Source of the DNA: Chryseobacterium taichungense
Lineage (GTDB): Bacteria; Bacteroidota; Bacteroidia; Flavobacteriales; Weeksellaceae
Direction of reading: 5' to 3'
DNA length: 64,000 nt
NCBI RefSeq assembly: GCF_900109935.1
Contig: NZ_FOBV01000002.1
Coordinates: 310,001 to 374,000, forward strand
Shown: piece after piece, positions 20,119 through 61,135 of the stretch
Numbering within the stretch: position 1 is the stretch's first letter
How the letters are laid out: the number at the start of each line of letters is the position of its first letter
Position numbers and translations under genes: made by a program
The notes under the pieces: generated by a model
What the model was told of the DNA's origin: nothing
The model's input: the letters and a program-made list of their open reading frames with translations, nothing else
Databases searched by the model: none

Positions 20119-20156
20119 GAGGCTGTCCTAAAAGTTGGACAGTCTCTTTTTTTTTT
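20119..20156 (+). terminator. Rho-independent terminator after GH30
   Basis: Stem GAGGCTGTCC / GGACAGTCTC with one mismatch and a short loop, followed directly by ten T. It sits 33 bases after the GH30 stop and separates it from the arabinose genes. Confidence 0.9.
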
Positions 20157-20174
20157 AATACCATAATGAACAGC

Positions 20175-20363
20175 CCAATCATTTAATTTAAGTCTCATTC
20201 TGAAAAGTTTAGGTCTTTTAATGATACGTTTAGGTCTTATCATTAAAAGTTTAGATCTTAAAGTTAAATTTTTAAGCATTAAACGTAAATTTTTAAACAT
20301 TAAACTTAAAATTTTAAGTCTTAGACCTAAAAATTTAAGTATCAAATATATTTTTTTAAAACT
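20175..20363. repeat. Degenerate tandem array, nine units of 21 nt
   Basis: Read from 20175 in steps of 21, each unit keeps a TTTAA or TTTAG near its middle and often ends AGTCT or GGTCT. Units 1-3 (20196-20258) and units 4-7 (20259-20342) form two sub-groups. A perfect 12-base inverted repeat (CTTTTAATGATA ... TATCATTAAAAG) spans units 2-3. It lies in the 534-base gap 20086-20619, which otherwise holds only the GH30 terminator and the GH3 promoter/operator. The minus strand is open across it and reads as a 7-residue repeat, a consequence of the 21-nt period rather than evidence of a gene. Confidence 0.85.
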
Positions 20364-20500
20364 TTAAAGCGATATTTTCAGTCTTATGGAAATAATTATC
20401 TGTTTCAAACATAAAAACATCATTCCGTTACATTTTAAACTCATTAGCGTGCTGCAATAAGAATAAACTTCTTTTTTGAAAAGAATCAATCTGAAAAATT

Positions 20501-49907: not shown

Positions 49908-50024
49908 ATTAAATTTTTTATTGGTGTCCCTTGTATTTTACAATAAGCATGCCTTCTCACGTTAATTTTATTTAAAATTTAAAATAAAATGTTTGGCATA
50001 AAAAATGATGATGGTTTATAGTTA

Positions 50025-50060
50025 TACTAAAATTTTATCAATTAGTATATTTATCAATTA
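50025..50060 (+). promoter_or_regulatory. Candidate operator region of the carotenoid operon
   Basis: Inverted repeat TACTAA-N11-TTAGTA (50025-50047) overlaps two direct copies of TTATCAATTA (50035-50044 and 50051-50060), 11 bases upstream of the marR-type ATG. Dyads of this size are usual MarR targets; the link is inferred. Confidence 0.4.
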
Positions 50061-50071
50061 AATTCAATATC

Positions 50072-50740
50072 ATGAATTACAGAATGACAAAAGAAGTCAT
50101 TGATCTTCTTGAACAGTTTGAAATCGAAAATACCGAAAGCTATTACCCAGCCAACATCAGTGGTTTTAAAGAATGGCTTTGTGATAAATCTTCATTTGAA
50201 AACAAACAAAAAGAAGAGCCATACTGGGAAGGAAAAGAAAATGGAAGAACTCCCGAAAGTGCTATAAGCACATTATTAGTCCATGTAAACCGATACGCTA
50301 AGACTTATTCCAAGTCTGCTATTTCAGATTCCGATTTTACCACGCAGGAAGATTTTATTTATCTTATTAATCTTAAGGCGTTCGGTAAAATGACGAAAAT
50401 GGAGCTGATCAAAAAAAACATCCATGATAAGCCTGTAGGAATGCTCATTATTACAAGACTTCTGAAGCAAGGCTGGATTGAACAGGCAGAATCTGATATC
50501 GACAAAAGAAATAAAATCATATCCATCTCAGAAAAAGGAAAAGAAGCCCTTGAGAGACAAATGAAAAAGATAAGGGAAGCTACCGACATCGTTGCCGGAA
50601 ATCTTACCTATCATGAAAAAATGGAACTCATCAGGATCCTTAATAAATTGGATCGCTTTCATTATCCCATCTTTTCCAGAAATATCGACAGCAAAGATCT
50701 GATCAAAACCGTTTACGAAGAATACTCATTTAAAAATTAA
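50072..50740 (+). CDS. MarR-family regulator of the carotenoid operon
   Basis: 222 residues, longer than the usual ~150, with an N-terminal extension of about 70 residues. The winged helix is at about 110-170 with KMTKMELIKKNI, MLIITRLLKQGWIEQ and the wing SDIDKRNKIISISEKG. It is the first gene of the operon, 2 bases before crtI, which makes control of pigment synthesis by this protein likely. The ligand or signal is unknown. Confidence 0.88.
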   Translation: MNYRMTKEVIDLLEQFEIENTESYYPANISGFKEWLCDKSSFENKQKEEPYWEGKENGRTPESAISTLLVHVNRYAKTYSKSAISDSDFTTQEDFIYLINLKAFGKMTKMELIKKNIHDKPVGMLIITRLLKQGWIEQAESDIDKRNKIISISEKGKEALERQMKKIREATDIVAGNLTYHEKMELIRILNKLDRFHYPIFSRNIDSKDLIKTVYEEYSFKN

Positions 50741-50742
50741 CT

Positions 50743-52212
50743 ATGAAAAAGAAAATTGCGGTAATAGGATCAGGATTTTCGGGGCTTTCGGCTGCAGCTT
50801 ATGCTTCAAAAGAAGGTCATGAAGTACATCTTTTTGAGAAAAATAATGATCTCGGAGGAAGAGCACGAAATTTTAAAACCGAAAATGGGTATACATTCGA
50901 TATGGGTCCCAGCTGGTACTGGATGCCCGATATTATAGAATCCTTTTTTAATGATTTCGGGAAAAAAGCCTCTGACTTTTACACGCTTGTTCCATTAGAT
51001 CCGCAATTTGAAATGGTTTTCTCCGACGGAACAATGAATATTCCTCACAACTATCAGGAGATGAAAGACCTTTTTGAGAAAACAGAACCCGGAGCCGGAG
51101 ATAAGCTCGATGCATTTATGGAAGATGCACAATACAAATATGAAGTCGGAATGCAGGATTTCGTCAATAAACCCTGCCATTCATGGTTTGAATTTGTTTC
51201 ACCCAAAATAGCCAAGAGCGCTTTGAAGCTTGATCTTCTCACCAATTTTCAGCGATTTGTGCGAAAATATTTTACTCATCCAAAACTGATTGTTTTAATG
51301 GAGTTCCCTGTTATTTTTCTGGGTGCTGCACCAAAGGATATTCCTGCGTTGTACAGTTTAATGAACTACGGAGGATATAAGTTAGGGACATGGTATCCAA
51401 TGGGCGGTTTCTCAAAAATCATCGATGCAATGAAAAATATTGCAGAAGAACAGGGAGCTCATTTTTACGTCAATGCAGATGTTGAAAAGATTAATGTAAA
51501 GGATAAAAAAGCTTCTTCATTGGTGGTAAATCAGAAGGAAATTGATTTCGATATGATCATTGCTTCTTCAGATTATCATCACACCGAAACAAAACTTCTT
51601 TCTGAGAACTACAGAAACTACAATGAAGAATACTGGAAGAAAAGAGTTTTCGCTCCTTCCTGCCTGATCTTTTATCTTGGATTTAAAGAAAAAATTCCAA
51701 ATCTCAAGCATCACACCTTATTTTTTGAAAATGATCTGGATCTTCACACGGAAGAAATTTATAAGGATAAAAAATGGCCGACAAAACCTTTGTTTTACGC
51801 CTGCTGTCCTTCAAAAACCGATGATTCCGTAGCTCCGGAAAATTGTGAAAATGTTTTTCTTCTCATGCCTGTAGCGCCGGGGATTGAAGATTCCGAAGAG
51901 ATAAGAGAACGATATTTCATGGAAATGATCTTAAGATTAGAAAAGCATACAGGTGCAACCGATCTTCTGCTGAAAATCGATTATAAAAGAAGCTATTGTG
52001 TAAAAGATTTTAAAGAAGACTATAATGCTTATCAGGGGAATGCATACGGACTTGCCAACACATTGTCCCAGACCGCCGTGCTGAAGCCATCACTCAGAAA
52101 TAAAAAAATAAAGAATCTTTTCTATACGGGGCAGCTTACCGTACCCGGACCGGGTGTACCGCCATCCATCATTTCAGGAAAAATAGCTGCAAATCAAGCC
52201 AACAAAAATTGA
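50743..52212 (+). CDS. crtI: Phytoene desaturase
   Basis: 489 residues. An N-terminal FAD-binding motif IAVIGSGFSGLSAAAYA followed by DLGGRARNFKTENGYTFDMGPSWYWMP, and the C-terminal CrtI-type signature LFYTGQLTVPGPGVPPSIISGK. It converts phytoene to lycopene through successive desaturations, acting at the membrane. The following gene overlaps or abuts (crtB start 5 bases after the stop). Confidence 0.96.
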   Translation: MKKKIAVIGSGFSGLSAAAYASKEGHEVHLFEKNNDLGGRARNFKTENGYTFDMGPSWYWMPDIIESFFNDFGKKASDFYTLVPLDPQFEMVFSDGTMNIPHNYQEMKDLFEKTEPGAGDKLDAFMEDAQYKYEVGMQDFVNKPCHSWFEFVSPKIAKSALKLDLLTNFQRFVRKYFTHPKLIVLMEFPVIFLGAAPKDIPALYSLMNYGGYKLGTWYPMGGFSKIIDAMKNIAEEQGAHFYVNADVEKINVKDKKASSLVVNQKEIDFDMIIASSDYHHTETKLLSENYRNYNEEYWKKRVFAPSCLIFYLGFKEKIPNLKHHTLFFENDLDLHTEEIYKDKKWPTKPLFYACCPSKTDDSVAPENCENVFLLMPVAPGIEDSEEIRERYFMEMILRLEKHTGATDLLLKIDYKRSYCVKDFKEDYNAYQGNAYGLANTLSQTAVLKPSLRNKKIKNLFYTGQLTVPGPGVPPSIISGKIAANQANKN

Positions 52213-52217
52213 TTACT

Positions 52218-53054
52218 ATGAAAAAACTATTTGACGAACTTTCTTATAAAGTCAGTAAAGAGACTACAAAACAATATAGTACAAGCTTTTCCCTGGGAAT
52301 TTTGGCTTTGTCATCCACGATCAGAAATCCTATCTATGCCATTTACGGCTATGTACGCTTGGCAGATGAGATTGTAGACAGTTTCCATGATTATAATAAA
52401 GAAAGATTATTAAAAAAATTCAAAGAAGAAACCTTTCAGGCGTTGGAAGACCGTATCTCACTCAATCCCATACTGCAGTCGTTCCAGGAAACGATACACC
52501 GGTACAATATTGATGATAAGCTTATTCATCAGTTCTTGAAAAGCATGGAAATGGACCTTCAGAAAATCGATTATAATTCCGATCTTTACAAAGAATATAT
52601 TCTGGGTTCCGCAGAAGTGGTAGGCCTCATGTGTCTTCAAATATTTGTAAATGGTAATAGGCAACAATATGAGAACCTTAAACCATATGCGATGATTTTA
52701 GGGTCGGCTTTTCAGAAAGTCAATTTCTTAAGAGATATGAAAGATGATTATTACACGTTAGGAAGAAGCTATTTTCCCAATCTTGATATGACTTCATTTG
52801 ACAATAACGTAAAACTATCGATAGAAAAAGAGATCGAAGAAGAGTTCAGACAGGCACTGATCGGAATTAAAAAACTTCCTGCATCCTCGAGATTCGGAGT
52901 ATATCTTGCCTACAGATATTATGTTTCTTTGTTTAAAAAGATTAAGAGAAAATCGGCTCAGACCATCATGAGCGAAAGAATCAGGATATCCAACGGTGCG
53001 AAGATCTCCTTGATGATGAGCTGTTATGTTCAGTACAAAACTTCTTTTTTATAA
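52218..53054 (+). CDS. crtB: Phytoene synthase
   Basis: 278 residues from the ATG at 52218 (a TTG at 52209 overlapping the crtI stop would add three residues). Squalene/phytoene synthase fold: first Asp-rich motif in YGYVRLADEIVDS, second in FLRDMKDDYYTLGRSYFP, plus STSFSLGILALSS near the N-terminus. It condenses two geranylgeranyl diphosphates to phytoene. Order crtI-crtB-hydroxylase-cyclase gives a full pathway to zeaxanthin. Confidence 0.95.
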   Translation: MKKLFDELSYKVSKETTKQYSTSFSLGILALSSTIRNPIYAIYGYVRLADEIVDSFHDYNKERLLKKFKEETFQALEDRISLNPILQSFQETIHRYNIDDKLIHQFLKSMEMDLQKIDYNSDLYKEYILGSAEVVGLMCLQIFVNGNRQQYENLKPYAMILGSAFQKVNFLRDMKDDYYTLGRSYFPNLDMTSFDNNVKLSIEKEIEEEFRQALIGIKKLPASSRFGVYLAYRYYVSLFKKIKRKSAQTIMSERIRISNGAKISLMMSCYVQYKTSFL

Positions 53055-53076
53055 TGACATTTATACCAGTTAAAAG

Positions 53077-53532
53077 ATGAATTCCCTAATTGTAATAGCT
53101 ACTTTTTTTGTGATGGAGGGCATGACATGGCTCATTCATAAATACATTATGCACGGCCTGCTGTGGGTGCTGCACAAAGATCATCATGACCACAGCAATG
53201 ATGGACATATGGAAAAAAACGACTACTTCTTTGTGATATTTGCTGTTCCTACCATTATTCTGATGTATTACGGAACAATCAATGGCTTTAATCATTGGTT
53301 CTATATCGGATTGGGAATTGCACTCTATGGAATGGCTTACTTTTTTGTTCACGATATTTTCATTCATCAAAGAATAAAGCTGCTAAGAAATACTGAAAAC
53401 CCTTATCTCTTAGCGATCAGACGCGCGCATAAACAACATCATAAACATACCGGAAAGGAAGAAGGAGAATGCTTCGGATTTCTCTGGGTTCCCGTCAAAT
53501 ACTTTAAAATGTACTTCAATAAAAATAAATAA
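53077..53532 (+). CDS. crtZ: Beta-carotene hydroxylase (CrtZ type)
   Basis: 151 residues with four membrane segments and the His clusters of the di-iron fatty-acid-hydroxylase superfamily: HKYIMHGLLWVLHKDHHDH, HDIFIHQR and RAHKQHHKH. The small size and position in the operon fit CrtZ, which hydroxylates both rings of beta-carotene to give zeaxanthin. The next gene starts on the base right after its stop. Confidence 0.93.
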   Translation: MNSLIVIATFFVMEGMTWLIHKYIMHGLLWVLHKDHHDHSNDGHMEKNDYFFVIFAVPTIILMYYGTINGFNHWFYIGLGIALYGMAYFFVHDIFIHQRIKLLRNTENPYLLAIRRAHKQHHKHTGKEEGECFGFLWVPVKYFKMYFNKNK

Positions 53533-54246
53533 ATGCAGCAATACATCTACCTTCTTATCAATTTTTTCACTGTTATAATATGTTTTATTTTTTCTTTTCA
53601 TCAAAAGATAAGATTTAGTAGATATTTCAGTCCGTTTCTTACTGCCTCACTGATCGTCGGTGCTGTATTTGTAGCATGGGATGCCTGGTTTACCAAAATA
53701 GGAGTGTGGTGGTTTAATGATAAATACCTTTTGGGAATACGATTATTCGGGCTACCGCTTGAAGAATTGCTTTTTTTTATCTGTATTCCTTTCGCCTGTA
53801 TTTTTACCTATTATTGTCTGGATAAATTTTTTAAGCTCGACTGGAAACCTCTTCCCCAAAAGATTTTCGTCTTAATAAGTATTTTCGGGGCATTATTGAT
53901 CAGTTCCTGGTTCTGTGACCGGATCTATACTTTTATCACTTTTCTGTCAACAGGATGCAGCCTCTCTATCCTGTATTTTATTTTGAAAGTAAAATGGATT
54001 GGAAAAGTATCCTTCGTATATCTGCTGCTGATGCCCGGATTTTTAATGGTAAATGGAATTCTTACCGGCACCGGCCTGGAATCTCCTATTGTCAATTACA
54101 ATCCTGAACATTTTATTGGATTAAGAATTTTAACGATCCCTGTTGAAGATGTCGTTTATGGCTATGAACTGATTCTTTGGAATGTTTTTCTCTTCGAATT
54201 GTTTAGAAAGAATGAAGAAAAAACTGTTGTTGAAGTGGAAGCCTGA
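53533..54246 (+). CDS. Lycopene cyclase, fused CrtYcd type
   Basis: 237 residues, membrane protein with about seven hydrophobic helices. It contains two lycopene-cyclase-type repeats, each with the conserved Pro-Glu motif: LPLEELLFFIC in the first half and IPVEDVVYGYELI in the second. This is the c/d-type cyclase family with both halves fused in one chain, rather than the FAD-dependent CrtY. It forms the rings of beta-carotene. It is the last gene of the operon; the repeat-rich gap follows. Confidence 0.9.
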   Translation: MQQYIYLLINFFTVIICFIFSFHQKIRFSRYFSPFLTASLIVGAVFVAWDAWFTKIGVWWFNDKYLLGIRLFGLPLEELLFFICIPFACIFTYYCLDKFFKLDWKPLPQKIFVLISIFGALLISSWFCDRIYTFITFLSTGCSLSILYFILKVKWIGKVSFVYLLLMPGFLMVNGILTGTGLESPIVNYNPEHFIGLRILTIPVEDVVYGYELILWNVFLFELFRKNEEKTVVEVEA

Positions 54247-54315
54247 TTCCAATACGTTTAAATCATATTTGAACAGTTAATACAATGGACCGCTGCCATT
54301 CCGCAATAGTGCGGA

Positions 54316-54915
54316 CAGGTATTTAAGCTCATCGATGAGGTTTTTTAATGTTTCCGATATGTAGCTAACCTTTCTGGAATGATAAGGAACATCTCTAACA
54401 GGTTATAGAACCTATCTGTTGCTATAAATACTACCTCCAAACGATCAAATAACGTCTCACGATACGTTATACAACCCCAAAATACACGTTCTGAACCCCG
54501 CCGGACAGGTCGCTGACGTCTCGCGATACGTTATACAACCCCAAAATACACGTTCTGAACCCCGCCGGACAGGTCGCTGACGTCTCGAGATACGTTATAT
54601 AACCCCAAAATATACGTGCTGAACCTCGCCGGACAGGTAATTAACGTCATTGGATACGTTATACAACCTGTCTGTAGCAGTGAATAACGTCTCCGGATCA
54701 TCAAATGACGTGTCTAGATAGGTGAGGAACGTCTCGCGATACGTTATATGACCCAAAATACACGTCCTGAACCCCGCCGGACAGGTAATTAACGTCATCG
54801 GATAGGTTGTATAACGTATCTGTTGCGGTGAATAAAGTGTCCGGACCAGTAAACAACGTCTCTGGATATGTTGAGAACCTGTTTAGGTCTGTTTTTAATA
54901 GATATAGATACGATA
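54316..54915. repeat. Tandem array with 21-nt units and a 64-nt higher-order repeat
   Basis: From 54316 the sequence steps in units of 21 (sometimes 22) bases with a common core of the form AAC-nTCTC-nnn-ATACGTT. Three 64-base blocks are almost identical, with TACGTTAT at 54463, 54527 and 54591 and a partly changed fourth at 54655; a diverged copy restarts near 54728. The blocks carry ACCCCGCCGGACAGGT and are more GC-rich than the surroundings. There are no unique spacers and no cas genes. Short open frames on the minus strand across the array read as 7-residue repeats and are not convincing genes. Confidence 0.85.
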
Positions 54916-54987
54916 GAAACTCCACAGCCCGGTTTTATTTAATATAAAGGTGCTTGAAAATTAAAATATATTCTCCATTCAATAGAG

Positions 54988-55003
54988 GCGGGCTTTAGCC
55001 CGC
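54988..55003 (+). terminator. GC-rich palindrome, possible terminator or dispersed hairpin
   Basis: GCGGGCTTTAGCCCGC, a perfect 16-base palindrome followed by TTTTCTT. A shorter related hairpin GGCTTTAGCC lies at 55027-55036. It may end transcription from the carotenoid operon, but such GGCTTTAGCC elements also look like dispersed repeats. Confidence 0.5.
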
Positions 55004-55256
55004 TTTTCTTACCAAATACTATATTCGGCTTTAGCCAAAATTTAAATATAAACTTTATATAAATTTAAAGCCAATTCCTTTTTTACAAATACATAATTCT
55101 TTATAAATGCGAATAATGAGTTAATAAATTTACGGTATTACGTAAAATATTTAATTCTGGTTTTTATTTAATTGATTTTAAATCAATATTTTAAATATTT
55201 AGGTTGTTTTTTGGCACTTACCAGGAAAATAATATAAACCTTTAAAATATTTTATC
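55004..55256. other. AT-rich upstream region of the 55.3-62.7 kb cluster
   Basis: No gene. It contains the second GGCTTTAGCC hairpin and a perfect inverted repeat TTTACG-N6-CGTAAA at 55129-55146, about 110 bases upstream of the next start, which is a possible operator. I could not place a convincing TAnnTTTG box. Confidence 0.5.
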
Positions 55257-56195
55257 ATGAAAAAAACTAAACCCATTATCGCAGCAGCTGTTTTATCAGC
55301 ACTTATGTTTGTTTCCTGCACGAAGACTAACAAATCAGAAAATCAATCTCAGGATGCCGCACAGACTACTGCCCAGGCAAGAGCAGAATACATCGAAGTT
55401 GAGCCTAACGTAAGACTTCACGTAACCGACCTTGGTGAAGGAAAACCGGTGGTTTTAATCCACGGATATCCGGTGAGTGATGCTTCCTGGGAGTATCAGT
55501 ATCTTCCTCTAATCAAAGCAGGATACCGTGTGATCGGGATCACTTTAAGAGGATTCGGACAGTCAGATAAACCGTATGGAAAATACAATTACGATCAGTT
55601 TGCTTCTGATATCAAAACGGTTTTAGACAAATTGGATATCAAAGATGCTACGTTAGGCGGACACTCAATGGGCGGTGCTATTGCTTTGCATTATGTGGCA
55701 AAATACAACGCTGATCACGTTAGCAAATTAGCGTTATTCGCTGCTGCAGCACCTGTTCATACCAAAAAACCGGATTATCCTTATCCATTATTTACGAAAG
55801 AAGAAATCACCAAATGGGTAGACCTTGTCAGCGTAGACAGACCTGGATTACTGAACACCATTGGTGAAAGATTCGTTTTATCTCCAACTTCTGTTTCTCC
55901 TGGTATAGGTGCATGGTTAGGTGGAATCGAAATGCAGTCATCGGCGTACGCCATGGAACAGGCATTAATTGCTTTAAGAGATGAAGATCTAAGAGGCGAT
56001 CTGCCGAAAATTAAGATTCCAACGCTTATTATGCAGGCAAAACAGGACCGAATTGTGGCCTATGCTTTAGCAGAACAAATGAATAAAGCCATCAAAGGAT
56101 CTACCTTAATTCCTTTTGAAAACAGCGGACACGCATTATTCCTGGAAGAAAGAGATAAATTCAACGCAGAACTCCTTAAGTTTTTAAAACAATAA
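55257..56195 (+). CDS. Alpha/beta hydrolase, lipoprotein (haloperoxidase/esterase-like)
   Basis: 312 residues with a lipoprotein signal (lipobox FVSC, Cys about 22). The hydrolase has the oxyanion motif VVLIHGYPVSDASW, nucleophile Ser137 in GGHSMGGA, an acid Asp in MQAKQDRIVAY and His in NSGHALFLEER. It belongs to the large chloroperoxidase/arylesterase/epoxide-hydrolase-like group; the substrate cannot be told. A terminator after the gene suggests it is at least partly a separate transcription unit ahead of the following cluster. Confidence 0.85.
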   Translation: MKKTKPIIAAAVLSALMFVSCTKTNKSENQSQDAAQTTAQARAEYIEVEPNVRLHVTDLGEGKPVVLIHGYPVSDASWEYQYLPLIKAGYRVIGITLRGFGQSDKPYGKYNYDQFASDIKTVLDKLDIKDATLGGHSMGGAIALHYVAKYNADHVSKLALFAAAAPVHTKKPDYPYPLFTKEEITKWVDLVSVDRPGLLNTIGERFVLSPTSVSPGIGAWLGGIEMQSSAYAMEQALIALRDEDLRGDLPKIKIPTLIMQAKQDRIVAYALAEQMNKAIKGSTLIPFENSGHALFLEERDKFNAELLKFLKQ

Positions 56196-56204
56196 TTAGC
56201 CCCG

Positions 56205-56237
56205 ATTGCCTGTGGCTGAGGTTGCAGGCAATTTTTT
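56205..56237 (+). terminator. Rho-independent terminator after the alpha/beta hydrolase
   Basis: Stem ATTGCCTG / CAGGCAAT with a 12-base loop, then six T, 9 bases after the stop codon. Confidence 0.85.
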
Positions 56238-56280
56238 CTTCAGATCTAAAATAAAATAATTAACAACCAATAAACTTTTT

Positions 56281-56913
56281 ATGAAACCATCAACAAAACT
56301 ATTATCTCCCGACAATCATGCTCTTGTACTGATTGATTTTGAAGGCCAGATGGCATTTGCAACTAAAAGCATCGCGATCAGTGAATTGCGAAACAACGTA
56401 GCTATCATCAGTGGAGCATCCAAAATATTCAATGTTCCGACAATCGTGACAACCGTTGCCGAGCAGAGCTTTTCAGGTCCGGTTTTTCCTGAAGTTCAGG
56501 AAGCCTATCCTATGGAAACCTCAAACTATATCGACCGTACTACCATGAATACCTGGGAAGATGAAGCGGCCTACAAAGCCATTACAGGAACTAAAAAGCA
56601 GAAGCTTGTTCTTGCCGGTTTATGGACAGGCGTTTGTATCGTAGGACCTGCCTTGTCTGCACTGGAAGAAAACTATGATGTATATGTCATTACCGATGCC
56701 TGCGGCGATGTAAGCGATGAAGCCCATGAAAGAGCAGTTCAGCGTATGATCCACGCGGGTGTGAAACCTGTGACTTCCGTACAGTATCTGCTGGAACTTC
56801 AGAGAGACTGGGCGCGTCAGGAAACCTATGTAGCAGTAACCGACCTGATGAAAAAGTACGGAGGTTCTTACGGACTGGGAATTCACTATGCTCACAATAT
56901 GCTGAATCATTAA
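56281..56913 (+). CDS. Isochorismatase-superfamily cysteine hydrolase (YcaC-like)
   Basis: 210 residues, no signal peptide. The catalytic triad pattern of the family is visible: Asp in LVLIDFEGQMAF and Cys119 in GLWTGVCIVGPAL, the latter at nearly the position of the E. coli YcaC cysteine (118). A Lys is expected from the segment before DRTTMNTWEDEA. YcaC proteins are octamers of unknown physiological substrate. It lies 15 bases upstream of the porin gene. Confidence 0.85.
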   Translation: MKPSTKLLSPDNHALVLIDFEGQMAFATKSIAISELRNNVAIISGASKIFNVPTIVTTVAEQSFSGPVFPEVQEAYPMETSNYIDRTTMNTWEDEAAYKAITGTKKQKLVLAGLWTGVCIVGPALSALEENYDVYVITDACGDVSDEAHERAVQRMIHAGVKPVTSVQYLLELQRDWARQETYVAVTDLMKKYGGSYGLGIHYAHNMLNH

Positions 56914-56928
56914 TATTTGAAAATTAAA

Positions 56929-58314
56929 ATGTTGAAGTCTTCATATTTCATATCATGCCTCTCCGGAATTTTAATGATCATCCTGTTTTCGGGAAAGCTG
57001 TCTGCACAGTCTTTTAAGCTGTTGCGCTACGATGAAAACTATGAATATCTTAAAGATTCTGCGGATACTTTTTATAATAAGGTAAAATTTCTTCCACTTA
57101 ATAATGAGAAAAATATCTATTTATCTTTCGGGGGAGAAGCAAGATATGAATATGTAGATTTCAAGAATGAAGACTGGGGCAGACTGAATATCGGACACAA
57201 TAACTTTTTTCTTCAAAGGTATGATCTGCATGCAGATCTTCATTTGGGAGAGCGTGTCAGGATATTTTCACAAGTGCGGAGTGCCTTGCAGAATGGAAGG
57301 AAAAACGGACCAAGAGGAATCGACGAAGATGAGCTGAGTATTCAGAATCTCTTTGTTGATGTTAAAGCTTTTAAAGATCAGGATAAAAATCTCGTTTTCC
57401 GTGTAGGAAGACAGGAGCTGGATTACGGTTCCGGACGATTAATATCCGTAAGGGAAGGCCCGAATGTACGGCTTTCATTTACCGGAGCTAAACTGATGTA
57501 TTACCAGAAGGATTTTTCGGTGGATGCTTTTGCGATGATGGCAGACAGCATTAACGCCGGAGTTTTTGATAATAAAATATCGAAACAGCTCAACCTTTGG
57601 GGAGCTTATTCTAAAATCATCTTTCAGAAAGCCGGAAATCTGGATATGTACTATCTGGGGATACGCAGAGATAATGCAGTTTTTGAAGCAGGAATTGCCA
57701 AAGAAAAACGACATACGCTAGGCGCACGGTTCTGGAAATACGGCGGCGGCTTTATCTATAATCTGGAAGCTGCCTACCAGTTCGGAACTTTCGGAGATAA
57801 AGCGATACGCGCATGGACGGGCTCGGTAGATCTCGGATATTTATTTGAAAATGTAAAGTTCAGGCCTAGCATTAATCTCCGCAATGATTATATCTCGGGA
57901 GACCGTACCAAAGATGACAATACGCTTCAGACTTTTAATCCTCTGTATCCGAAAGGCGGGTACTTCGGTTTCAGTCCGCAGGTCGGGCCGGTGAATCTTA
58001 TTGACATTCATCCTTACATTACGTTAGATTTTTCTTCAAAGCTTAAAATGCAGGCAGATGTGGTATTCAACTGGAGATATTCCCTAGAGGACGGTGTCTA
58101 CAGACCAAGTGGAGTCCTGAACCGGCCAGGTAGTAGCTCTGGTAAAAGGTATATCGGGACAGCATATCTTACCAATTTTACTTACAGCTTCAGCCGTTAT
58201 ATTTCATTAGTAAGCGGTATCCAGTATTTCAGGAAAGGGGCGTTCATTGAAGACATTATTCCCGGAGCCAAAAGCGGCGTGTTTTATAATATCCGTTTAG
58301 GCTTTAAATTTTAA
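56929..58314 (+). CDS. Alginate-export-type outer-membrane beta-barrel protein
   Basis: 461 residues from the ATG at 56929, chosen over a TTG at 56917 because the signal peptide MLKSSYFISCLSGILMIILF starts there. The mature chain has alternating amphipathic strands through to the terminal aromatic residue (NIRLGFKF), the mark of an outer-membrane barrel. Segments such as GEARYEYVDFKNEDWG, FRVGRQELDYGSGRLISVREGPN and GAKLMYYQKDFSVDAF match the alginate_exp family. Most relatives are anion- or solute-selective channels, not alginate exporters. Confidence 0.85.
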   Translation: MLKSSYFISCLSGILMIILFSGKLSAQSFKLLRYDENYEYLKDSADTFYNKVKFLPLNNEKNIYLSFGGEARYEYVDFKNEDWGRLNIGHNNFFLQRYDLHADLHLGERVRIFSQVRSALQNGRKNGPRGIDEDELSIQNLFVDVKAFKDQDKNLVFRVGRQELDYGSGRLISVREGPNVRLSFTGAKLMYYQKDFSVDAFAMMADSINAGVFDNKISKQLNLWGAYSKIIFQKAGNLDMYYLGIRRDNAVFEAGIAKEKRHTLGARFWKYGGGFIYNLEAAYQFGTFGDKAIRAWTGSVDLGYLFENVKFRPSINLRNDYISGDRTKDDNTLQTFNPLYPKGGYFGFSPQVGPVNLIDIHPYITLDFSSKLKMQADVVFNWRYSLEDGVYRPSGVLNRPGSSSGKRYIGTAYLTNFTYSFSRYISLVSGIQYFRKGAFIEDIIPGAKSGVFYNIRLGFKF

Positions 58315-58496
58315 TTATCACTTAAAAAAATTAACAACCTTGTTTAAGCTTTTTGTTTTAACCACAATAGTTTTTGAAAATCTTTGATTTCTATTCTTTG
58401 AGAGCTTTGTTTTATCTAAACTTTAAAATAATCTTTTGTCTCTTTTGCGGTTAAAATCAAATTAGTTTAAAAAGTAAATCACTAAAACTATTTATT

Positions 58497-59243
58497 ATGC
58501 AAAATTTAATATCAAAATATTTCGGAATCTCAAAAATATTGCTTGTAGCAGCTCTTGTAGGAGGTTCAATAACAAATTATGTTTCCGCTCAACAAACAGC
58601 AGAGGTAAAAACAGCGGTCGGTACAAAGAAAGTATGGGGAACAGTAGATGGTGTGACCATTGAAGGCTTGGTGAATGGTCCTTCTGCTGCAGTGGCAGAT
58701 CTCCAGATTGCCTGCGTTTTTGAATATACGGAAGGCGATATTTTTAAATCTCCAGCGCTTCCTGCAGAACTGAACGGGATGGTGCACTTAGATGAAGCAT
58801 TGAAAGGAATCATCACTGAAGTAAGAAAAACAGGAAAATTTAAAGGCTATGCGCTGGAAACATTACTGATGGATCCGCCAAAAGGAAGCATGGGTTCTAA
58901 AAAACTATTGCTCATCGGACTTGGCGACAGAAATAATTTCGATGCCGAATTGATGAAAAAAGTAGGAAGTGTAGCGATGAGAGAAGTATTGAGGCTGAAA
59001 GTTCAGACCGTATCATTTGCCAGCGACATTAAGGATGCCGGTATCGATTCTCCTACAGCGCTTGTTGCCGGAAATGTCGTGTTGGGTGCATTTGATGCTT
59101 ACCGTGCGCAGGCTTACCTGAATACTCAGCATGTATCCGAGAAAATGACAGTGAAGAAGCTGATCTTATTGGCCGGACCTTCATTTTTTACGGTTGCCGG
59201 TGGCGGAATTAAAGAGGCGATTGATCAACTTAATGCTAAATAA
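58497..59243 (+). CDS. Secreted protein with an isolated peptidase M17 N-terminal domain
   Basis: 248 residues with a signal peptide (about 1-31, ending VSAQ). The rest resembles only the N-terminal, non-catalytic macro-like domain of leucyl aminopeptidases (KLLLIGLGDRNNFDAELMKKVGSVAMREVLRLK, then ALVAGNVVLGAFDAYRAQAYL). The metal-binding catalytic domain is missing. It lies 2 bases upstream of the amidohydrolase gene, so it may assist that enzyme. Function unknown. The 182 bases before it contain a CTTTTGCGGTTAAAAT-type repeat element. Confidence 0.78.
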   Translation: MQNLISKYFGISKILLVAALVGGSITNYVSAQQTAEVKTAVGTKKVWGTVDGVTIEGLVNGPSAAVADLQIACVFEYTEGDIFKSPALPAELNGMVHLDEALKGIITEVRKTGKFKGYALETLLMDPPKGSMGSKKLLLIGLGDRNNFDAELMKKVGSVAMREVLRLKVQTVSFASDIKDAGIDSPTALVAGNVVLGAFDAYRAQAYLNTQHVSEKMTVKKLILLAGPSFFTVAGGGIKEAIDQLNAK

Positions 59244-59245
59244 CC

Positions 59246-61135
59246 ATGACAGCAGATCTTATTTTATATAACGGAAAAATCCACAGTTTCAGCAATGAAG
59301 CCCAGGATATTTCAGCAGTTGCCATTAAAGATGGAAAAATTATCGCGGTAGGAAATGACGGACTGACCGATCAGTTTGCTGATGAAACGACCAGAATCAT
59401 CGATCTTAAAAAGAAAAGAGTGGTGCCGGGAATCAATGATTCGCATATTCACTTAATTCGTGGCGGACTGAATTATAATCTTGAGCTAAGATGGGATGGA
59501 GTTCCATCATTAGCCGATGCATTGCGTATGCTGAAAGAACAGGTAGACCGTACGCCGTCTCCGCAATGGGTGCGCGTCGTTGGTGGCTGGTCAGAATTTC
59601 AGTTTGCGGAAAGAAGAATGCCGACGCTGGAAGAGATTAATGCGATTGCTCCCGAAACTCCTGTTTTTATTCTCCATTTGTATGACAGAGCGTTGATGAA
59701 TAGGGCTGCTTTGAAAGCAGTAGGCTATACCAAAAATACACCTGCTCCTCCCGGAGGACAGATCGAAAGAGATTCCAATGGTGAGCCGACAGGACTGATC
59801 ATCGCAACACCAAATGCCATGATTCTTTATTCAACACTGGCTAAAGGTCCCAAGCTTTCTTATGAGCATCAGCTGAATTCTACCAGACATTTTATGAAAG
59901 AGCTCAACCGTTTCGGAATAACCAGTGTTATTGATGCCGGAGGAGGTTTTCAGAACTTTCCGGATGATTACCAGGTGGTGAACGAATTGAATCAGAAGAA
60001 ACAGCTTACGGTAAGAATTGCTTATAATTTATTTACCCAAAAACCAAAAAATGAGTTTGAGGATTTCAGTGAATGGATTGATACAGTAAAACTCTATCAG
60101 GGTGATGATATGTATCGCCATAACGGGGCTGGCGAGATGTTGGTTTTCTCTGCCGCAGATTTTGAAGACTTTTTACAGCCAAGACCTGATCTTCCGGAAA
60201 ATATGGAAGAAGAATTGGAAAAGGTTGTCCGTCTTTTGGTTGAAAATCGCTGGCCTTTCAGACTGCATGCCACTTATGATGAAAGTATTACGAGGTTTTT
60301 AAATGTTTTTGAAAAGATCAATCAGGAAATTCCTTTCAATGGTCTGCCATGGATTTTTGATCATGCGGAAACGATCAGCGAAAGAAATGTTGAAAGAGTG
60401 AAAAATCTTGGTGGCGGAATAGCCATCCAAAGCAGAATGGCTTACCAGGGAGAATATTTTACCGACCGTTACGGCTCAACAGCGGCAGAAAATACACCTC
60501 CGGTAAAGAAAATGCTTGCCATGGAAGTACCGGTAGGAGGTGGTTCTGATGCTACAAGAGTTAGTAGCTATAATCCTTGGGTTTCTATGTATTGGTTAAC
60601 AGCTGGGAAAACGGTTGGCGGTCTTCAGCTCTATCAGGAATCACGGCTGGACAGAAGAACAGCGTTAGAACTTTACACCAAAGGAAGCGCATGGTTTTCT
60701 CAGGAACATCATAAAAAAGGAGATATTAAAGTAGGAATGTTTGCCGATCTGGCAGTTCTTGATAAGGATTATTTCACCATTGAGGAAGAAGATATTAAAA
60801 ATATTGAAGCGGAGATGACGGTCGTTGATGGTAACATTGTCTATGCGAAAGGAGAATTTTCATCATTTGCGCCACCGTCTGTTCCCATTCTTCCGGAATG
60901 GTCGCCTACGAATCTGTATAATGGTTATTATCCGGTAGGAGGACACATTCAGAAAGAAATTGAAAAGAATTCAAAGTCTGCTCATAAAGTACCCCTTACT
61001 TCCCAGATTCACAGTTGTGTCGGAAGTTGTGATGTCCATTCCCACAATCATGATCAGGCAAGGATGAATAATTTGCCGGTAAATAATTATCATGCGTTTT
61101 GGGGAGCTTTAGGATGTTCTTGTTTTGCCTTTTAA
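59246..61135 (+). CDS. Amidohydrolase (YtcJ-like) with Cys/His-rich C-terminal tail
   Basis: 629 residues, no signal peptide. The amidohydrolase fold starts ADLILYNGKIHSFSNEAQ and has the metal motif in VPGINDSHIHLIRGG, plus WIFDHAETIS and GGGSDATRVSSYNPW. This is the YtcJ/exoenzyme-regulatory-like branch, often annotated as acting on N-substituted amides; the true substrate is unknown. The last ~60 residues are unusual: CVGSCDVHSHNHD and the very end ALGCSCFAF hold four Cys and several His, suggesting an extra metal site. The upstream M17-type gene is 2 bases away. Confidence 0.85.
   Translation: MTADLILYNGKIHSFSNEAQDISAVAIKDGKIIAVGNDGLTDQFADETTRIIDLKKKRVVPGINDSHIHLIRGGLNYNLELRWDGVPSLADALRMLKEQVDRTPSPQWVRVVGGWSEFQFAERRMPTLEEINAIAPETPVFILHLYDRALMNRAALKAVGYTKNTPAPPGGQIERDSNGEPTGLIIATPNAMILYSTLAKGPKLSYEHQLNSTRHFMKELNRFGITSVIDAGGGFQNFPDDYQVVNELNQKKQLTVRIAYNLFTQKPKNEFEDFSEWIDTVKLYQGDDMYRHNGAGEMLVFSAADFEDFLQPRPDLPENMEEELEKVVRLLVENRWPFRLHATYDESITRFLNVFEKINQEIPFNGLPWIFDHAETISERNVERVKNLGGGIAIQSRMAYQGEYFTDRYGSTAAENTPPVKKMLAMEVPVGGGSDATRVSSYNPWVSMYWLTAGKTVGGLQLYQESRLDRRTALELYTKGSAWFSQEHHKKGDIKVGMFADLAVLDKDYFTIEEEDIKNIEAEMTVVDGNIVYAKGEFSSFAPPSVPILPEWSPTNLYNGYYPVGGHIQKEIEKNSKSAHKVPLTSQIHSCVGSCDVHSHNHDQARMNNLPVNNYHAFWGALGCSCFAF

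Follow-up and report, generated by a model that had tools for sequence, protein, structure and literature searches.

What is a long run of short tandem repeats doing behind the last gene of an operon in Chryseobacterium taichungense? The array that raises this question lies in a 64,000-nt stretch of DNA, hereafter the window, for which a sequence-only reading had reported about 28 repeat units at 54316-54915. The array is real, but that extent was too short. Segmentation into units with free ends gave a span of 54241..54937 with 33 units on the plus strand, the best-scoring orientation; segmentation from 54304 gave 29 units. Successive units are spaced by 21 nt in 26 cases, by 22 nt in five, and by 20 nt in one. 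The first unit overlaps the stop codon of a 237-aa gene (53533..54246, +), the last of an operon that the sequence-only reading called carotenoid. Relatives of this gene with 80-82% identity are found in C. cheonjiense, C. takakiae, and C. taeanense, and the host is, judged by its sequence, a Chryseobacterium-type genome. A 312-aa gene, by eye a candidate hydrolase-like gene, begins 320 bp past the array (55257..56195, +). By eye, a GC-rich hairpin followed by T's (54988..55010, +) is a possible terminator behind the array; it is absent from the output of a scan for terminator-like hairpins. As had been noted, the array is richer in GC than its surroundings, with 43% in 54316-54915 compared with 38.6% for the window and 24% just downstream.

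The array had also been described as three nearly identical 64-nt triplets, a recent homogenization over an older 21-nt period, and both parts of that description held. TRF reported adjacent near-identical blocks at 54452..54668 (+; period 64, 3.4 copies, 90% matches), each composed of 21 + 21 + 22 nt. Lag identity in 54316-54915 peaked at 64 (0.50) and then at 21 (0.44), and lag 21 was best on both sides of the homogenized part (0.44 and 0.52). These blocks are a local duplication. The array was rightly said not to be a CRISPR, its units being contiguous and divergent, with no unrelated spacers between near-identical repeats, and the arms AGGTT-ATAG-AACCT at 54400-54413 are correct by eye. 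The proposed core, AAC-nTCTC-nnn-ATACGTT, is present as one variant but is not general. The wider consensus of this type of array, which we call dialect A, is AAC[CG]TnTCCnGAnA[CG]GTTnnn, nearly a palindrome of 18 bp followed by three bases. Position 1 is almost always A (95%) and position 16 almost always T (92%). As a genome search pattern with up to three mismatches, the core did not discriminate, giving 229 + 193 matches in the own genome (that of the window, G000) versus 270 + 254 in the backward control.

Block duplication of the kind seen by TRF is compatible with the main rival to the reading that we prefer below. According to this rival, the arrays are a selfish or neutral minisatellite-like repeat that grows by local duplication and is occasionally copied to intergenic sites, with no use to the cell; gene ends would tolerate such insertions, and the near-palindrome would ease slippage. 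We consider it a serious possibility, if an unlikely one.

The sequence-only reading had left room for a local expansion with no arrays elsewhere, but other arrays exist. The own genome has five dialect-A arrays, the window array and four others. Short blastn matches in two of 58 other genomes led to full arrays (L002 and L003). A three-unit, sequence-only model matched 26 of 173 genomes of the genus, including three (G000, G018, and G024) that supplied training arrays of model R1; the genomes compared are related and hence not independent. Among the matches listed, 37 arrays were retrieved from 24 of the 26 genomes, making 38 with the window array. These have 7 to 35 units each and scores of 33-305, compared with at most 16.4 for 46 control loci (L014-L059) scanned on one strand only; L125 and L126 (seven units each) and L122 (nine units) are weak arrays. 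Matches were found in 13 of 395 genomes of an order-wide sample. Convincing arrays outside the genus were present only in G414, which belongs to a different genus of this family and has two arrays, with 14 and 9 units. The other seven outside-genus matches were single and borderline, and the six that were retrieved gave one to three units with scores of 8-26.

Presence at any one locus can be patchy, which favors the selfish or neutral view. The own genome and G111 have the array at the window locus; C. cheonjiense lacks it there, and none of 46 loci of named relatives was array-like in score. Behind coaE, the own genome has a 14-unit 21-nt array of TCTACTTCACTATGGTAACAG type (L201:17729-18023; compare L209), and G184 has a diverged array of similar type. 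These are two of the 27 genomes read at the coaE locus, and no array was present in the other 25, two of which had less than 500 bp readable.

The 21-nt periodicity exceeds what chance would give. In 464 kb of the own genome, non-coding periodicity peaks numbered five, four, and four at periods 21, 22, and 23, some of them falling in one same array. Periods 14, 20, 32, and 33 had one peak each, and the remaining periods between 13 and 33 had none. Elsewhere, 200 kb yielded one 21-nt peak in G111, one in G172, one in G002 (by eye a simple repeat), and none in G007, and 100 kb yielded one in G037 and none in G414, G308, and G048. Arrays of 23-nt pitch with palindromic cores were observed at L186:1735-1850, L191:1195-1356, and L197:5318-5571. 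The L186 array follows a gene with HU-DNA_bdg and DUF4469 domains and is itself followed by a terminator-like piece common to L191; the L186 stretch had 17 matches in the own genome and 13 in G184, with no match in eight other genomes searched. Short arrays of 22-nt pitch, each with its own palindromic core, occupy intergenic positions of the own genome at L192:5238-5370, L196:13032-13120, and L197:13544-13654. At L187:8266-8640, which has an RtcB gene on one side and a convergent gene on the other, 21-nt units form supra-units of 84 nt.

Twenty arrays lie at one shared locus, locus X, and across species their units align one by one. This locus is the 3' end of a gene for a 162-aa protein, a link that the window alone could not reveal. 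The protein had no match in Pfam or NCBIfam and no solved relative, and is slightly acidic (19 K+R and 23 D+E); a PHROGs search gave two weak matches of unknown function. A search with it returned matches in 77 of 171 genomes. All of the best 20 matches (80-100% identity) had a 21-nt array. In a consensus-free 21-nt test, nine of the next ten loci (51-67% identity) scored 0.129-0.347, every time on the 3' side of the gene, whereas off-period values at those ten loci were at most 0.091; the tenth locus, L163, scored 0.094. In an analyst-chosen sample of 20 further homologs (23-65% identity), nine scored 0.135-0.254 and 11 scored at most 0.113, and the array of the nine positive homologs was 3' in eight and 5' in L168. 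Near a 42% homolog (L172), we observed strong periodicity (0.307) with a pitch other than 21.

All three homologs in the own genome (L153, L166, and L167) carry an array, and in G414, array L164 follows a 64% homolog at a distance of 50 bp; the second array of G414, L165, had no 162-aa homolog within the stretch read. At orthologous loci, part of the linkage simply reflects vertical descent. A dialect-A array of 14 units is present in G088, which is not among the 77 genomes matching the family. In G171 (L126:4023-4170), locus X carries a seven-unit array without the 162-aa gene, and its left and right neighbors match their counterparts in other genomes with locus X; the gene may have been lost and the array may then have decayed.

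Arrays beside different paralogs differ in sequence, and the window holds a second array, of dialect B, with 10 units at 20181..20390 (+) after a terminator-like hairpin at 20119..20146 (+). A matrix built from the array beside the second paralog of the own genome (L166) found 20181-20390 as its best match in 464 kb, with 81 bits compared with 16.8 for the next match and 17.6 for the reversed control. Matrices from the ortholog arrays of G108 and G009 selected 20181-20390 as well (88 and 61 bits), and reversed matrices gave at most 23 bits in this search. The next match of the G009 matrix, in L201, had 31.7 bits, exceeding the 22.1 of its control. For the third paralog, the adjacent array had no partner in the 464-kb sample (18.1 bits, control 17.9). 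A dialect match is observed for two paralogs.

A dialect-B model (R2), trained on arrays of G000, G009, G108, and G082, gave E < 1e-7 only in those four genomes and in G184 among 171 genomes; weak matches of at most 27 bits lift the nominal tally to 113. The second paralog, which had no Pfam match, was present at an identity of at least 86% only in G000, G009, and G108. Outside the training set, dialect-B arrays numbered two in G000, one in G108, one in G009, and two in G184, and no 162-aa homolog was found in the 6.5-7 kb read around them. G111 is without both a close second paralog and strong dialect-B matches. G184 is a clear exception, with dialect-B arrays and no close paralog.

Since 21 nt correspond to seven codons, the arrays might be remnants of a gene for a heptad-repeat protein, and dialect-A ORFs of 67 and 74 aa look like heptads by eye. 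On the minus strand of dialect B (L336, L338, L339, L340, L170, and L171), one frame is open nearly throughout and reads as basic heptads. This frame had one stop in units 2-8 of seven copies versus 10.9 in column shuffles, a weak test because the shuffle mixes different unit types, and one from which one L340 unit and the copy L166 were left out. However, pN/pS was 1.20 in the open frame of dialect B and 0.70-1.28 over the six frames of two dialect-A segments from locus X, compared with 0.15 in the adjacent gene. Dialect A has stops in every frame, whereas the adjacent gene has none, and 22-nt units shift the reading frame. Coding was rejected for dialect A, which has no conserved open frame under purifying selection, and is not favored for dialect B. 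We regard a heptad remnant as highly improbable.

An array transcribed as a 3' UTR could instead work as RNA, with chains of hairpins that stabilize or terminate the mRNA. The window array does follow a final stop codon and precede the T-tailed hairpin noted by eye, and RNA folding of 54316-54915 was more stable than that of shuffles (z -2.96 for + and -1.67 for -), an excess that may be what repeated near-palindromes give. We analyzed complementarity in 595 distinct neighbor pairs of units. It was above shuffled for some inner pairs, both within units (7/10, z 4.1; 6/11, z 2.6) and between units (10/7, 11/6, and 12/5, z 3.1-3.8), but at 3/14 it fell short of shuffled for both dyad axes (z about -5.5), as it did between units at 15/2 (z -6.2) and 13/4 (z -4.9). 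The RNAalifold consensus of 15 of the 20 locus-X arrays reached -13.4 kcal/mol over about 440 nt with a covariation term of +0.7, and seven of its 35 pairs had two-sided changes. The terminator-like hairpin of the second window array precedes the array, and a search of 50000-60000 of the window gave no Rfam match near the dialect-A array. RNA hairpins are without support, given the outer pairs below shuffled and the consensus fold. The pairing pattern reads as conserved half-sites, not conserved pairing, and we judge an RNA element very unlikely.

The spacing of units is nearly fixed. Among 697 unit steps, 604 were 21 nt, 83 were 22 nt, and 10 were 20 nt; the mean of 21.10 nt corresponds to a half unit of 10.55 bp. 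Certain positions within the unit are also better conserved than others. In the locus-X arrays, scored with the register taken from one array (three were tried) and applied to the other 19, mismatch was 0.08-0.16 at phases 1, 6, and 16 and 0.21-0.25 at phase 11, compared with a mean of 0.31-0.33; the segmentation matrix was otherwise trained on arrays. When the own genome and G111 were compared at the window locus, the four phases pooled had 15/118 mismatches versus 116/492 for the rest (p = 0.009). Protection there was carried by phases 1 and 16 (0.07 each), and phases 6 (0.17) and 11 (0.21) were near the mean of 0.215 and no better. Dyad symmetry had p < 0.05 in 11 of 15 other arrays.

These results bear on the selfish or neutral view, since neutral decay would not be expected to spare the same positions in unit after unit, as is seen in the orthologous locus-X arrays. 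The same arrays have higher identity than the four-fold sites of the adjacent gene (0.69 versus 0.61, higher in 153 of 190 pairs), an excess of which base composition may be part. Small indels do occur, as expected of such a repeat. In the core of the locus-X arrays, 34 gaps against one reference comprised seven of exactly 21 nt, 13 of 1 nt, the commonest indel, and 14 of other lengths. Whole-unit indels therefore stand out, and the register is not inviolate.

Several features of the units were noted apart from this conservation. The extra base of 22-nt dialect-A units goes with particular spacers, the commonest tails being GTTATAC (14) and GTTGTAC (7), counts that include inherited and duplicated copies. 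A universal AC-N12-GT code was rejected: N12 ranked top among spacings N5-N17, yet p was below 0.05 in only four of 17 arrays (L154, L155, L159, and L180), all beside homologs of the locus-X gene. Searched as a single operator, a near-perfect palindrome had 17 sites in the own genome versus two in the backward control, and five of the 17 are inside arrays by position. Corresponding counts of sites and control were 15/2 in G111, 10/0 in G009, 5/1 in G172, 8/2 in G002, and 6/9 in G007. The 12 own-genome sites outside arrays are single near-palindromes AACSTATCCGGATASGTT with two to three mismatches; they could be lone operators or chance.

Some arrays preserve the order of their units at other loci. 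Dialect-A arrays L106/L113, L110, and L111/L114 keep the unit order of locus X together with its two 22-nt positions, and among the dialect-B arrays, colinearity with L336 was found for L338, L339, and L166 (p ≤ 0.002). Whole elements have therefore been copied, and such copies again fit a selfish or neutral repeat. No support was obtained for the window array as a colinear copy of the gene-linked array (z -0.4, and z 0.3 against the copy in the own genome) in a test of low power, which misses the same-locus pair of the own genome and G111 (p = 0.07). With this limited power, colinearity with locus X was not found for L091/L104, L092/L123, L093/L122, and L118/L119/L124, nor was colinearity of the 20181-20390 array with other dialect-B arrays (p = 0.11).

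The arrays are located mostly at gene ends. We counted 22 loci, 10 with dialect A and 12 with other own-genome arrays, two of the 12 having been picked as beside the gene family; each locus was counted once, L111 and L114 probably being one locus and L126 being placed at locus X. Ten of the 22 lie in convergent gaps, compared with 20 of 137 background gaps (p = 0.002), or nine (p = 0.006) if locus X is treated as codirectional, its arrangement being convergent in four of 20 genomes, the own among them. Divergent gaps were not significantly fewer (3/22 versus 34/137). The distance between the locus-X array end and the stop codon of the gene is 20-65 bp in 19 of 20 cases and 113 bp in one. At the left borders of locus-X arrays L090, L096, L098, L102, and L120, we observed a REP-like GC-rich piece around CCCGCTCGTG or CTGCTCGTGCCC.

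Location at gene ends and in convergent gaps would suit a topology element, that is, a BIME-like site that attracts gyrase and relieves the positive supercoiling behind transcribed genes. Passages of one study describe E. coli gyrase as drawn downstream of transcribed loci and as cleaving BIMEs, at sites with a 10.75-bp periodicity of GC (PMC6379681). In 12 dialect-A arrays, however, the A/T signal peaked at 5.25 nt (mean power 16.6), a peak that the segmentation matrix may inflate, and was lower at 10.5 nt (3.3); gyrase, moreover, would have no need of gene-specific dialects. We consider a gyrase site quite unlikely.

A DNA-binding partner is suggested because the register is nearly fixed, particular positions are better conserved, neither coding nor consistent pairing is found, and a gene family has matching dialects. 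Our best reading, held tentatively, is that these are phased arrays for cooperative protein binding at gene ends, with the paralog as the likely cognate factor. The array would be a non-coding DNA element at the 3' end of a transcription unit, and its near-palindromic units, about two helical turns apart, would lie on the same face of the DNA, where a protein could land on them cooperatively. The candidate binder would be the ~162-aa family, the genes of which mostly carry an array of their own dialect at the 3' end, with arrays of the same dialect elsewhere. Arrays would lengthen as blocks of units are duplicated locally, and some have been copied whole to other gene ends. Once bound, they may act on the transcription or topology of flanking units, for example, as an end-of-gene insulator or roadblock. 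A counterpoint to helical phasing is that the 22- and 23-nt pitch arrays of the same genome would not keep helical phase. Also against this reading are the slight acidity of the 162-aa protein and its lack of a recognized domain, the dialect-B arrays of G184, the dialect-A array of G088, the 11 homologs with no 21-nt array and the 5' position in L168, the vertical descent behind part of the linkage, the relatedness of the genomes, the near-mean phases 6 and 11 at the window locus, the 1-nt indels at locus X, and the AC-N12-GT rule reaching significance in only four of 17 arrays. Of the three options that the sequence-only reading had offered, protein binding thus appears to fit best, RNA folding lacks support, and selfish spread stays in play through the colinear copies at other loci.

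A two-component genetic system of a novel type is also conceivable, although we doubt it somewhat. Each member of a family of small proteins, which are not recognizable as transposases, would maintain, read, or spread its own array dialect, with a reference array at its own gene end and satellites elsewhere, and the pairs within one genome would be orthogonal and co-diversified.

The nearest known kind of system, as described in parts of two publications, is that of REP/BIME repeats with REP-associated tyrosine transposases (RAYT) (PMC2817692, PMC3733652). Shared features are short, near-palindromic, extragenic repeats clustered near gene ends with lineage-specific variants, and a gene beside its cognate repeats with repeats of the same type dispersed. 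Unlike REP/BIME, the present arrays are strictly head-to-tail at 21 nt, have up to 35 units, and are without conserved hairpin pairing; unlike RAYT, the linked 162-aa protein has no Pfam match and so none to a Y1 (HUH) transposase. Iterons and partition-site arrays are direct repeats about two helical turns apart beside the gene of their binding protein, whereas the present arrays are chromosomal and occur at several loci per genome, at the ends of unrelated genes. Searches of 72,556 plasmid and 50,697 phage records gave no match to the array DNA, and the plasmid records gave none to the 162-aa protein. Tandem units with block duplication also recall minisatellites and VNTRs, but the old, divergent units, near-fixed register, position-specific conservation, and dialect match with a gene family set these arrays apart. 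In type III toxin-antitoxin systems, repeats precede the toxin gene and yield an RNA antitoxin; the array here usually follows the gene. Among the matches listed in a search of the open-access literature, there was no description of such 21-nt arrays, which look like an undescribed repeat class even if selfish.

If the pairing of protein and dialect is causal, these arrays would provide orthogonal protein/DNA-array pairs within one bacterial genome. They would also offer a model for a non-coding repeat family that is tied to a gene and is not a classical transposon, and may represent new chromosomal insulators or anchors in Bacteroidota.
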